This document shows positions 32,087 to 48,441 of a stretch of DNA of 64,000 nucleotides, piece after piece. The position numbers were made by a program, and so were the translations under genes. This DNA is from Arthonia radiata (taxonomy: Eukaryota; Ascomycota; Arthoniomycetes; Arthoniales; Arthoniaceae), in contig PSQN01000008.1 in assembly GCA_002989075.1 (NCBI GenBank), forward strand, positions 310,001-374,000, written 5' to 3'. Positions within the stretch are counted from its first letter, which is position 1. Every line of letters starts with the position of its first letter. The notes beneath the pieces are model-generated. The model worked only from the letters and a program-made list of their open reading frames with translations, had not been told where the DNA came from and made no database searches.

Positions 32087-34003
32087 ATGCCCCAGGGACA
32101 ATTGAGCCTCTCCACGGAACAGAACACACCTTCGTCAGCTTCTTTCAAGACCGCGAACGCATCGAGTGTCGCTAAAAACCTGCGCGGAGCGTATGAGTCA
32201 ACAGGAGAAGACGCCTCCGGTCAAGCTCGTACAGATAGGAAGACTGAGCGCTCACCTACTTCTCCTCGAAACTTCAAAAGCTTCTTCAAAAGCAACGGCA
32301 AATCAGAGCGTAGTGAACGCGTACCGAATCCACGGCGGAACGGCTCTAACAGCAACATGTCCGCCGCTGACTTGAGCGGTAAACCCTCCTCGATCTCGCA
32401 TTTGTATGGTGCTGGTAACAACAATTCGACCCCAAGCATGAACCATGGGAACGCCTTTGATGAGACAGCGAGCATGAAGAGTGCCGTTAGTGGCGTGCCC
32501 GAAAGTTTGCGATCTGATGATGAGGTCAACAGATACAAGACTGGCAGCACAACAAATATCGCTGAGCATGCACAGAGGAAAGGAGGCAGAGGAACTCTCT
32601 CAAACAACGCGTTGCAGCGCTCCCACTCAAGGCGGCAGACCGAGTCACAGGATAGAACACAACGTCTGCGAGTCGAGCAAAATACTGTGACTGCCGCTGC
32701 GGAAGAGAAAGAACGTCAGGGCAGCAATCCGATAACTGCTCCTCCCGGTCGACAAGATCGCGCGTTCCGCGAGGCAATGCAAGCCCAGCAGGCACGCAAC
32801 CGCTCTGCAGATCGCTCGGCTGTGGAATCAGAAGATGAGTATCCAGCATCACAAGCGAAAACCTCGCAAAACACTTTCTTTGGGCATTTCCGTCAACATG
32901 GCGCAAAAGCAGCCGATGGCATAGGAAGAGCGGGTAAGGGGATTTTCGGCAAGTTGAAGGAAAGCCGAAGTGGTAGTTCACACGAGAAAGACAACTCCTC
33001 CTCCATCGACCTGAGAGGCCAATCGTCAATTCTTAAGGAACCGCTGAAAGAGCAAACCCGCCGGACGAGGATCAAAAAAACGATGGACGCCGCCCGGGAT
33101 AAGACGGAATTCTGGATGCCTGCGCTACCATACCGATGCATCGATTACTTGAACCATCACGGCATCGATTCTGTCGGTCTCTACAGGATTCCAGGTTCTA
33201 CTACTGAGATCAAGGCTTTTCAACAGAAATTCAATAGTCCACCATACGATGTAGACATGTTGCATCCAGACAACGAGCCACAAGACCTCAACGTGGCTGC
33301 GTCACTTCTGAAGAATTGGGTGCGATTTCTTCCGGAAGAACTTCTACCAAAAGAGGTACAGGATCGTATCGAAAAGCAAGCCCCGAACGAGAAGTCGACC
33401 CCTCAAGTGATGCGAGAGGAGCTCTCCAATCTTCCGCCCTACAACTACTATCTACTCTTCGCAATCACTTGCCATATGAGTTTGCTTCATGCTCACCGTG
33501 AAGTCAACAAGATGAGCTATGGCGCCCTGCGAACCTGTTGGGCCTCGCTGAATGTGAGCGCATATGTTTTCCAATTTCTCATCTGCGACTGGCGAAACTG
33601 TTGGCAGGGCTGCTCGACAGAGCAGGACCAGATGGTCGTGGAGCACGACGTCATCGCTCGTATACGAGCACCATCACCAACGCCAGCGGATCGACTCAAA
33701 CCGCCCGAGGATGACCAGCCACTTCAAATGCCCGAACAGCCACTGTCAGGTAGTCAGGCCGCTGCCCGCTTCGCAAATGCAAAATCCCCCGAACGATCGG
33801 AGCCACCGGCAAGGCCGACGCGTCCAGAGAGGCCAGGACGCGCGACTCCTCCAGTTCAGCAGACCTCATCAGCGAAACCCCACAAGGATAACTCGGAGCC
33901 CTTTTCCCAAGACCTCAAATTTGCGCAAAAGAAGCCATCGACTCCCGACTCTTCCGCACCTTCTCACGGGCCTGTTGCGCCAGTTTCGCCCATTCGCATG
34001 TGA
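32087..34003 (+). CDS. RhoGAP domain protein
   Basis: GTPase-activating protein for a Rho-family GTPase. Single exon, 638 residues. The first ~340 residues are low-complexity, Ser/Arg/Asn-rich, with a basic FKSFFKSNGKSERSERVP segment and a possible amphipathic piece FGHFRQHGAKAADGIGRAGK. The RhoGAP domain spans about residues 344-505: ALPYRCIDYLNHHGIDSVGL, then YRIPGS with the catalytic arginine finger; DLNVAASLLKNWVRFLPEEL with the conserved Lys-Asn-Trp-x-Arg; LLFAITCHMSLLHAHREVNK; and FQFLICDWRNCWQGC. The tail is Pro-rich (RPTRPERPGRATPP), possibly an SH3 ligand. An SH3-bearing RhoGEF lies 3 kb away; any direct partnership is only a guess. I do not assign a specific yeast orthologue. Confidence 0.9.
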   Translation: MPQGQLSLSTEQNTPSSASFKTANASSVAKNLRGAYESTGEDASGQARTDRKTERSPTSPRNFKSFFKSNGKSERSERVPNPRRNGSNSNMSAADLSGKPSSISHLYGAGNNNSTPSMNHGNAFDETASMKSAVSGVPESLRSDDEVNRYKTGSTTNIAEHAQRKGGRGTLSNNALQRSHSRRQTESQDRTQRLRVEQNTVTAAAEEKERQGSNPITAPPGRQDRAFREAMQAQQARNRSADRSAVESEDEYPASQAKTSQNTFFGHFRQHGAKAADGIGRAGKGIFGKLKESRSGSSHEKDNSSSIDLRGQSSILKEPLKEQTRRTRIKKTMDAARDKTEFWMPALPYRCIDYLNHHGIDSVGLYRIPGSTTEIKAFQQKFNSPPYDVDMLHPDNEPQDLNVAASLLKNWVRFLPEELLPKEVQDRIEKQAPNEKSTPQVMREELSNLPPYNYYLLFAITCHMSLLHAHREVNKMSYGALRTCWASLNVSAYVFQFLICDWRNCWQGCSTEQDQMVVEHDVIARIRAPSPTPADRLKPPEDDQPLQMPEQPLSGSQAAARFANAKSPERSEPPARPTRPERPGRATPPVQQTSSAKPHKDNSEPFSQDLKFAQKKPSTPDSSAPSHGPVAPVSPIRM

Positions 34004-44598: not shown

Positions 44599-45668
44599 GA
44601 ATCGTCTGGCGGGCATGAATTTCACACATCGTCAAGCGGAAGTGCTTCACTAAGCGCTCAACGTACAACAGATGTCATTGATGCTTCCCATCTCGCAAAG
44701 ACACTTTTTGTACTCCGCTGTCGGAACAGAAAGTTCTGCCGGAAACTCGCATGATTTCGCGCCTGCATAGATGGCTCTCCATATGGCTAGTATGAAGGAA
44801 CGGTGTTCTGTTCACGAACAGCAACATGGACTCCCAAGACATTCGAGACAACGCTTTTGTTTCCGTTCCATCTACACTAATCTGGATGCATCAGTCCCAA
44901 TCTACACACGCATCGAACATGGCGTCACGAGAACCTCTACGTATTTATGCTGCCGTTAGACCTTCTCAATGGCATACGAGGCTTGGTTTCGCGGCAGAAG
45001 CATCCGGGAGCTCGCAACCAATGCCCACAGGGTTGCTTGGCGCTTACTGAGCCATATCAGTGACGGAGTCTTCGAACAGGCGGTCCGTTGGGTACGACGG
45101 CACGCCAGTGTGTGTGTGGACTCGTTAATGTCTCTGGAAGGTTTATTGAACGTGAAAAGTTCTTGATTCGGGCGCTGGAAATCTCTAAGATGGACTGTAT
45201 TATGAAGGGGAATTCGGCGGGACTGGTGGTGATGGAGAGAAGGATAGTGCGATTTGGTAGGGATATATGATTTTGCGTTGGATATTGACAGCGCTGAGGT
45301 GCAATGACAACGTCTGAGAGAAGTCGTGGATATCTGGGAGGTTCACTACAGTTGACTGAAGAGAGCATTTGCAAGTATGGATTCCTCGAAGACTAAACCC
45401 TAGCTACTAAGTTTCATCCCTGTCGTGTAACAGCGAGGCATCTACTGACGTTGCACACATGATTCGCTCACACCAGGTAGCAATGACTTTTCACCAGCTA
45501 GTGTTCACCTTTTTCCACTCCTTCAGTCGTGGCCATCTCTAGGTATTATGTTTCGCAGCATCGCGCGTAGCGCCTGCCTTCTGGCGCGGTTGAAGAGTAG
45601 ACGGTCAAGAAGCCTCAGATGTGGAGGAATGGGTTCACCTCACCGCTCCCATCAAGAGTCTGCTTTTC
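44599..45668. other. Intergenic region, possible 5' exon of the next gene
   Basis: About 1.07 kb. Two short frames near 44771-45050 have no family resemblance. From about 45610 to 45668 the frame of the next gene is already open and protein-like (EASDVEEWVHLTAPIKSLLF), so that gene may have an upstream exon which I could not place. Confidence 0.45.
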
Positions 45669-46545
45669 ATGGCCAAGCCAAGAAGCCAGAGCGCGGATAT
45701 TTCTCTGTCGGCATGGAGATCTCCGGTACTCTTGGGTGGCTGGCTCTTCTTAGTGCCAGCTGTTACGAAGACGTATAGAACGTGTTAGCATCTTCCATGG
45801 TCTTCATACATCCGCACAATATCACCAGGGAAGACCACAGCAAAGTCTTAGAACTCGTGAGTTGCAACGTCTCATTGTATACTGCTCGAGGGGCTGCTGA
45901 TACCTTCTTCGACAGCTGAAAGCCACGAAATCCGAGGGCAAAGTGCCCACGACATTGCCAACGTCTACCAGAGACGCGAACGAGTCTCGTCGTCTGGCTG
46001 ACGCACCGGGCAAGGCCGAAAAGGCCAACGGTCTTGCTCGAGAACGAGAAATGATCATCAAATGCGAAGACGAGTGGAACAAAATCCAACATCGACTACT
46101 GATGGACGCCTTCTTCCCGAGAGACGGTTCGCTTGTGGCCATGAAAGATGACCGTGACGTCGCGGATCCGCTGGTGCCGTTTCCACCCAGTCTAAGAATC
46201 GACGAGAAGGACGCGGTGTTATTCAAGATTGTGGACAGCCGCACTCGAAAAGTGAGAATGCTGGTCCTGGCGCTTGACGGTAAGCGCTGGAGCCATGAGC
46301 CAACGATCACCGACGATGATCTTATTGAGTCGTTCCGACCTCTGGTGCCTTGGGCTCGAGAGACTGCAAAAGAGATTTACGCATCTGGGTCCACGGTCAA
46401 CGAAGATCCCATACCATGTTATGTGTGGCACCCGAAATCTGCCTTTGGTGTCTGCAGCGGCACCTCGGGCATACATTTAATGAAGTGGGAAGCAGGGGAA
46501 GTGAAACCAGGATTCCCGCGAGGTCTGGTCGAGCGTCTGAGGTAG
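45669..46545 (+). CDS. Unrecognised single-pass membrane protein (family member B)
   Basis: Three exons, 45669-45781, 45829-45856 (28 bases) and 45916-46545, give 256 residues and a frame that closes exactly. One membrane span, SPVLLGGWLFLVPAVTKTY, lies near residues 18-36. After a charged linker (EKANGLAREREMIIKCEDEW) come the shared blocks: LLMDAFFPRDGSLVAMKDDR, AVLFKIVDSRTRKVRMLVLA, a W-A-R-E block (PWARETAKEIYASGSTVN) and the end KPGFPRGLVERLR. The next gene (47023) is a tandem paralogue and the gene at 8985 a more distant one. The start at 45669 is the simplest choice; the frame is open about 60 bases further upstream, so an extra 5' exon is possible. A start at 45548 in another frame would need a weak GTATAG donor and loses the membrane span alignment. 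No catalytic motif recognised. Confidence 0.75.
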
Positions 46546-47022
46546 TTTGGTGTTCTGAGGATATTCATTCGCTTTCAATTTGCAGGATCTTACAGTCAGG
46601 TATTGATATTAAAACACCAACTGACAAAAGGCCACGTTTCGGCGTCCATTCGACAGATGCGAACAGTATATGTTCATTCTCTTGCTATGCTACGGGCGCT
46701 GGTTTAAAAAACCACAACGCGCCCTGGCTATATCCGCTTCTCTTGGGTGATAGAGGGCGGCATTTGACTGGGTGTCGACGAATGCGAGGGATATGAAGAA
46801 GCTCGCGTGGTGCAGAATGCTTGAAATGAAGCTCTCTTGCTGCCATGAAATCTTCATATATTCTTTGACCATCGATAGCAAAAAACTTCATTTCAGTTCC
46901 GTTGCACTAGCCATCAAAGATCTAGATTTCGAACGAGTCACGCACTCGGTGCGAGCGCATGCGCGCAGTGAGGCGTTTGATACAGACTCCGTCCATCGCT
47001 GGATGCTTTCTCAGAGCGATGT
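46546..47022. other. Spacer between tandem paralogues
   Basis: About 480 bases. No independent gene recognised. A frame from 46959 overlapping the start of the next gene could encode an alternative N-terminus for it (MYEVPPARLRLWLHFWHLY). Confidence 0.45.
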
Positions 47023-47679
47023 ATGAAGTCCCGCCTGCTCGACTTAGGCTTTGGCTGCACTTTTGGCATTTGTACTGTCTTTGGATTCCAATGGCTTACC
47101 GCAAGCCCAAGCACCCATGCCCGCACCAGCTTCAACCATCTTCGGTCGCAAGAGAAAGCCGACGAGCAGTTCAAAGGATACAAATGCGCGCTAGTGAGCT
47201 CAATGGAACGTGCCGCGCTCATGCAGCGCCTCATTGCGGATTCGCTCTTTCCGACTGGGGCGCCGTTGGTGGCTGTCAAAGATGAACGTGACATAGCAGC
47301 GCCGCTGGTACCAACACCTCCGGGATCCGGGCTCAGCGAAGATAATGCGATGCTCATACAAGTCATTGAGAGTCGCACTCGCAAGACGCGGGCTTTGATA
47401 CTGGCAATAGAGGATAGCTGGTGGGATCCGGGATCATCGGAAAGTGATCGTATGCGTAAAAACCCTTTTGAACCAGTAGAGCGTTGGCTCTTTCAAGGTG
47501 GGGAAGAAGTGTACGCGAAGGGAGAGACTGTTAATTGACAGCCTGTACCAGCCATGCTTTGGCACCGGCGGTCCATTACAGAGAACACGCCAAATTCGAT
47601 GGGACCAACGGCTATTCTTCTAAAGGGCGAAGACTTCCGAGACGGGTTTTCGATGGATCTGGTAAGGAGTTTGAAATAA
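47023..47679 (+). CDS. Tandem paralogue (family member C) interrupted by an in-frame TGA
   Basis: The open frame from ATG 47023 to TGA 47536-47538 encodes 171 residues: a membrane span (FGCTFGICTVFGFQWL), LIADSLFPTGAPLVAVKDER, AMLIQVIESRTRKTRALILA, and EEVYAKGETVN just before the stop. These match member B block by block (LLMDAFFPRDGSLVAMKDDR; AVLFKIVDSRTRKVRMLVLA; KEIYASGSTVN). Reading past the TGA in the same frame gives 46 further codons, QPVPAMLWHRRS ... AILLKGEDFRDGFSMDLVRS, ending at TAA 47677-47679. They align with the last 47 residues of member B (DPIPCYVWHPKS ... GFPRGLVERLR). Either the gene is truncated or decayed, or UGA is read through, or a tiny intron ending in TTGACAG removes the stop. 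The last is less likely because it would delete the conserved KGETVN block. Function unknown. Confidence 0.6.
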
Positions 47680-47889
47680 TGGGAAACGACGGAAGACCAC
47701 TCGAGCCGAGGGATGCGACATCGTAGGAGGGTCTGGAATCCGAGTGCGTGGGGTCATGATCATGGACTCTCCTCTTAGCCAGTGCAATCACTCCCCTCAC
47801 TTGGTAGGTTCGAGCCGGACAGAAAAGGCTTTCTTCCATTTGCTCCAGCAGCGTAATTTGCTGTTTAGTATTCTCACCGAAGGTAGCAC

Positions 47890-48441
47890 TCAGATAAACA
47901 TGCTCACGGTCTTGATCAATCCTTTCGCAAGCCCACCCTGGCTCTCAGGGCGTCGGCCATACCCTTCTTGACTGCCATACCATGCATCATATCCACCTCT
48001 AACGCTTTGTCCGGCGCCGAACAGCTGCATCAATGCAGTTGGCATCGGCACGCCCAGACGTCTTGCAAACTGCTGCAGCGCGCCTCCACTCGCGAGCGCC
48101 ATGACGAGCGGTAGTATGACCTTCACTGGGTGTCTCTTCATGTACCGGAAGATTTCACGGAGAAAGCGCTGGATCTTGCGTACCATCCGCTGAACGAAGC
48201 CGCTACGAGGACGTGCGCGTGAATAGGAGTACGAGGATGAACCGCCGCCGACCGAGCGGGCGGTGTAACCGGAGGGCGACTTGGAGCGGTGGGAGGTGCT
48301 GGCTGGGCGCACCCAGACGCCGCTGCCGAGCGTAGGGGAGGACTTGGAATGCGGCGCATGGTGCGGGCGTGAAGCAGAGGGGTATGGCGATTTAGAGTGC
48401 GAGTGAGAGCCGTGGTGCGAGCGGGAGGAGCTGGTGAACAT
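47890..48441 (-). CDS. Uncharacterised small protein with Ser/His-rich N-terminus and one membrane span
   Basis: Single exon, 183 residues from the ATG at 48441. An upstream in-frame ATG at 48579 would add 46 unremarkable residues. The first half is low-complexity (SSSRSHHGSHSHSKSPYPSA, GGGSSSYSYSRARPRS). A basic amphipathic region follows (FVQRMVRKIQRFLREIFRYM), then a hydrophobic span (VKVILPLVMALASGGALQQF, residues about 118-138) and a Gly/Tyr-rich tail (RGGYDAWYGSQEGYGRRPES). It might be an organelle- or ER-membrane protein. I do not recognise a family. Convergent with the paralogue pair. Confidence 0.65.
   Translation of the reverse strand: MFTSSSRSHHGSHSHSKSPYPSASRPHHAPHSKSSPTLGSGVWVRPASTSHRSKSPSGYTARSVGGGSSSYSYSRARPRSGFVQRMVRKIQRFLREIFRYMKRHPVKVILPLVMALASGGALQQFARRLGVPMPTALMQLFGAGQSVRGGYDAWYGSQEGYGRRPESQGGLAKGLIKTVSMFI

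Follow-up and report, generated by a model that had tools for sequence, protein, structure and literature searches.

Stop codons differ in leakiness, and in a comparison of three stop contexts in yeast, TGA followed by C was the leakiest (PMC3609751). The hexamer CARYYA after the stop is described as a readthrough motif whose last base matters in one mammalian reporter context (PMC4132726), while on the upstream side A at -2 is reported as one of two positions raising readthrough in yeast and U at -1 as giving low readthrough in mammalian cells (PMC12233894). The readthrough core that has been shown in fungi is UGA CU(A), and the peroxisomal signal carried by the extensions derives from SKL (PMC4207609). 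Coding sequence around a stop may also be turned into an intron, and in the fission yeasts covered by one report, transcripts disproved most putative intronizations of this kind (PMC3629103). Unprocessed pseudogenes, which arise from tandem duplicates, and recent nonsense truncations form a further group of described systems. The locus presented here, a gene (C) lying next to its relative (B), resembles this last group in having a tandem paralogue, an in-frame stop and a recognizable in-frame remnant behind the stop, and differs from it in that C carries a single lesion in the aligned part.

The locus lies in a window of 64,000 nucleotides, which is the whole stretch of Arthonia radiata DNA that was analyzed. 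The genes of the window are eukaryotic: by Pfam, an IRE1-like protein with kinase and Ribonuc_2-5A domains is encoded upstream of B and C and an AICARFT/IMPCHase gene of purine synthesis downstream of them, and genes for ECM29, for a clathrin-type protein and for a TCP-1/cpn60 chaperonin lie elsewhere. B and C both occupy the + strand in the stretch between the IRE1-like and AICARFT/IMPCHase genes, and the features assigned to them are collected in Table 1. A tRNA finder run in its bacterial setting found no tRNA in the window.

Table 1. Features of the B/C locus, with positions counted from the first letter of the window
Feature	Position	Strand	Basis
Gene B, putative exon 1, 20 codons from ATG	45797..45856	+	Deduced from intron scan
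Gene B, putative 59-nt intron, GTGAGT..CTGAT..ACAG, phase 0	45857..45915	+	Splice consensus scan
Gene B, exon 2, ending in TAG; paralogue of C in tandem, uncharacterized family	45916..46545	+	ORF and alignment
Gene B, C-terminal 46 codons, homologous to the C tail	46405..46542	+	BLASTP, six-frame scan
Gene C, 5' part of open frame; no convincing alignment to B, translation uncertain	47023..47154	+	Frame comparison
Gene C, part homologous to B, 127 codons, gapless	47155..47535	+	BLASTP, alignment
Best candidate intron in C, 102 nt, GTATGC..TTGAC..CCAG, whose in-frame removal would take out the TGA; probably spurious	47450..47551	+	Splice-site pairing
Gene C, in-frame TGA aligned with GAA (Glu) in B; next codons CAG CCT	47536..47538	+	Alignment
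Gene C, continuation after the TGA, 46 codons and TAA	47539..47679	+	Alignment

As originally predicted, C ends at the TGA 47536-47538 (ORF 47023-47538, 171 amino acids), and the same frame stays open over 47539-47676 up to the TAA 47677-47679. On sequence grounds, B and C are tandem paralogues: ahead of the TGA, 47 of 128 residues are identical without a gap (pairwise BLASTP E value of 7e-28), and from 47155 onward the alignment runs free of indels, every position of C lying 1134 nt from its counterpart in B, so that the TAA of C stands opposite the TAG of B. About three-quarters of the part common to both genes precedes the TGA, which is the single lesion in 174 aligned codons, no further one being found in the 127 + 46 codons of C aligned to B. 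The continuation had also been said to resemble the C terminus of B, and this held, with 11 of the last 46 residues identical in a gapless match (pairwise E value of 1e-4). The one-residue difference in tail length that had been reported (46 against 47) disappeared once the TGA was counted as an alignment column, since after a shared N there are 47 codons in B and the TGA plus 46 codons in C.

Scanned across 127,720 six-frame positions in the window, the tail of B scored 50 on the tail of C, which is 7.2 SD above the mean; the next best place, B itself apart, scored 36, and none of 20,000 residue permutations reached 50. TGA serves as a regular stop in this genome, ending 20 of the 46 ORFs of at least 300 codons. 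Up to 13 of these 46 ORFs, one of which had too little sequence behind it and some of which may be exons, are also followed by at least 46 stop-free codons, and the open frame behind the TGA is thus worthless as evidence when taken alone.

Searches of the organism's own genome, covering 33.5 Mb in 16 contigs, returned at least B and C when B was the query and at least C and B when the part of C before the TGA was used. With the C tail alone (E value of up to 10) or with the DNA of C, only C was recovered and B was not reached. Pfam gave no match at an E value of up to 1 for B (45943-46542), for C before the TGA or for the tail; the same part of B matched no PDB chain at an E value of up to 10, and 60 pattern matches obtained by scanning prokaryote genomes with B contained no relative. 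A candidate third family member on the - strand (33686-33823, score of 36 to the B tail) has an in-frame stop and runs antisense to a long + strand ORF, and we attribute it to chance. A structure predicted from a three-row input (exon 2 of B, the pre-TGA part of C and its tail) had a mean pLDDT of 45 and a pTM of 0.38, with residues 173-209 below 50, and given this low confidence we make no domain claim for B or C.

B probably has an upstream first exon and a 59-nt intron, a two-exon model that predicts a product of 229 amino acids. This first exon and the intron (45797-45915) are not visible in a plain ORF reading. The intron at 45857-45915 is the sole one with the strict consensus pattern used in our scan on the + strand of 45400-47900; such patterns arise at 2.3 per 2500 nt of strand window-wide, and mononucleotide shuffles of the region gave a mean of 4.0.

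The 5' end of C is less clear. The original prediction began the gene at 47023, where there is indeed an open frame; this start is unproven, and similarity to B sets in near 47155, leaving the 44 codons after the ATG at 47023 without homology support. Comparison of the N-terminal part of B with the three frames of 46546-47212 yielded nothing beyond chance (P values of 0.60, 0.40 and 0.09). The best spot for B exon 1 upstream of C, at 46597, scored 16, a value reached at 39 of 127,882 window positions and not significant for the roughly 600 positions searched. C may start later, may have an unrecognized first exon or may also be broken at its 5' end. Two further open stretches lie here on the + strand. 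The first (47048-47197, frame +1 relative to C) reads ALAALLAFVLSLDSNGLPQAQAPMPAPAS..., resembles a secretion signal and ends at two stops; the TAG just before it could be a splice acceptor, and the stretch is possibly due to chance or possibly a sign that the 5' end of C is misframed. The second (46772-47026) is an open frame of 84 codons directly upstream of C, whose TGA overlaps the presumed ATG of C.

Synonymous differences between B and C are saturated, with pS values of 0.76 before and 0.78 after the TGA, indicating that the duplication is old and that dN/dS between the two copies is not usable. Over the whole tail of C, pN was 0.555, compared to 0.743 ± 0.044 for shuffled codons, and none of 2000 shuffles was as low; together with the saturation of the synonymous sites, this indicates that the tail was constrained over much of the period after the duplication. 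The signal is uneven. The first 12 and last 12 codons of the tail had a pN of 0.40, next to 0.39 for the core, and the 22 codons in the middle, only one of them identical to B, had a pN of 0.72, near the shuffled value; these blocks were picked after the alignment had been seen, and conservation like that of the core applies to the two end blocks only. The weak middle may be a variable loop or may reflect some decay. Codon usage was uninformative, the tail of C falling between coding and noncoding controls: it scored -0.014, and 9 of the C termini of 46 long ORFs scored no higher, and 9 of the 45 stretches following a stop and 27% of 1200 stretches taken at random scored no lower. The tail of B itself failed the same test (-0.109 in frame, 0.096 in another frame).

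How long such a tail could last without constraint was simulated, beginning with the present-day tail and using assumed indel rates. At 1 indel per 10 substitutions, the fraction of tails free of stops and indels fell from 0.42 at 0.05 substitutions per site to 0.175 at 0.1 and to 0.07 at 0.15; at 1 indel per 20 substitutions, it was 0.05 at 0.3 substitutions per site. A neutral tail would thus probably show stops or indels beyond about 0.15 to 0.3 substitutions per site, and the quick fall in survival implies that the tail of C, if it is unconstrained, has been so only briefly.

The original prediction had left the choice between a recent stop and a translated UGA. Of the two, the recent stop is the better supported, because the synonymous sites are saturated and yet the frame is intact and the match gapless, while the one thing that speaks for readthrough is a moderately leaky context, UGA CAG CCU. 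We therefore regard it as probable that C is an old tandem duplicate that has acquired a recent in-frame nonsense codon, and that it now stands as a gene for a truncated protein or as a young pseudogene; the homology, the gapless frame and the synonymous saturation are seen directly, and from them we infer a recent origin of the stop and an end to translation of the tail. Under this model, an old tandem duplication of an uncharacterized gene would have produced B and C, selection would have preserved the full-length C terminus of C over much of its history, and a nonsense codon would then have arisen in frame. C would now encode at most a protein lacking the last 46 to 47 residues, about one-quarter of the sequence that it has in common with B. 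The tail would be a fossil still too young to have decayed. Counted against truncation are the single lesion in 127 + 46 codons, the middle of the tail with its absence of conservation, the pN of the whole tail, higher than in any upstream stretch of 46 codons, and the failure of the tail search to reach B; moreover, an intact, gapless tail is also compatible with continued translation. No RIP signature was found in C, for which the composite index, in its usual definition, was -0.78, the value for the whole window being -0.68.

A lone lesion would also be seen if the TGA were a single-base sequencing or assembly error or a minority allele that entered the assembly. We hold this to be highly unlikely: what speaks for it is that the TGA is the only blemish in the aligned codons, and there is no N anywhere in the window, so nothing obvious marks a poor region.

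Splicing would offer another way past the stop, either through a new intron formed from coding sequence or through alternative splicing, so that the TGA would lie within an intron and the spliced mRNA would keep the reading frame. Around the TGA there are six GT..AG pairs that have a branch-like site and whose removal would preserve the frame, and two of these have GTRNGN donors. Among 600 random positions in 47 long ORFs, the means were 2.88 such pairs and 0.25 pairs with a GTRNGN donor; at least one pair of the latter kind occurred at only 13% of the positions, whereas at least six GT..AG pairs occurred at 20%. C thus shares with intronized coding sequence the in-frame potential splice sites around the stop, and differs from the cases described in the part of the literature considered (PMC3629103) in that its candidate intron still matches the coding sequence of the paralogue. 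Indeed, the best candidate (47450-47551) contains sequence conserved gaplessly with B (F.P..W, then YA.G.TVN, then P.P), and as its removal would take out sequence that gaplessly matches B coding sequence, a new intron across the TGA is possible but not favored. An intron ending at 47541, the check proposed in the original prediction, has, as its sole frame-keeping partner with a branch site at 40 to 150 nt, the poor donor GTAGAG at 47476, and would likewise delete residues conserved in B. The strict-consensus scan, moreover, found no intron here. Taken together, we consider an intron around the TGA unlikely.

There remains functional readthrough of the UGA, in which some ribosomes would decode the TGA and yield a long form with a B-like C terminus beside the short form. 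The stop of C is of the TGA-C type that was leakiest in the yeast comparison (PMC3609751), the CAGCCU behind it fits CARYYA at five of six bases (PMC4132726), and there is an A at -2 (PMC12233894). CARYY follows only 0.67% of 8791 TGA triplets and CAR only 1 of 27 TGAs ending ORFs of at least 250 codons, both motifs having been sought after the site had been seen, and the tail is intact and gapless. On the other hand, the sixth base of the hexamer is unmatched, being U for A (PMC4132726), and the U at -1 belongs to the low-readthrough context (PMC12233894). With respect to the CARYYA-type stops (PMC3609751, PMC4132726), C therefore agrees in five bases after the stop and departs in its final base and in having no downstream structure: the 105 nt from the TGA showed no special RNA folding (z score of -0.14; 87 of 200 shuffles folded at least as well), in a test of local folding without pseudoknots. 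With respect to the UGA CU(A) genes of fungi and animals, as far as they are described in PMC4207609, C agrees in having UGA followed by C and an in-frame extension with an ancestral coding signature, and departs in having CA rather than CU after the stop and no peroxisomal-type end; UGA CAG CCU lies outside the UGA CU class described there for fungi and lacks the UGA CU(A) core. The tail ends in ..VRSLK, in which no SKL-type peroxisomal signal was seen by eye, and it has no recognizable targeting signal. All 46-codon windows upstream have a lower pN than the tail (range, 0.300 to 0.481), which makes the tail less conserved than any of them. Functional readthrough accordingly appears very unlikely to us. 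We give equally little credence to its more specific form, in which C would be a dual-product gene whose leaky UGA CAG CCU gives a short protein and a minor, selected long form with the ancestral C terminus.

If the tail were translated, C would be an additional readthrough gene, one in which the UGA stands in a CAR-type context and the long extension derives from the family. If C is, as seems probable, a recently truncated duplicate, the locus would be an unremarkable case of a duplicate gene caught while its end is being lost, and its main use would be to caution that gene callers might cut C short or predict a false intron in it.
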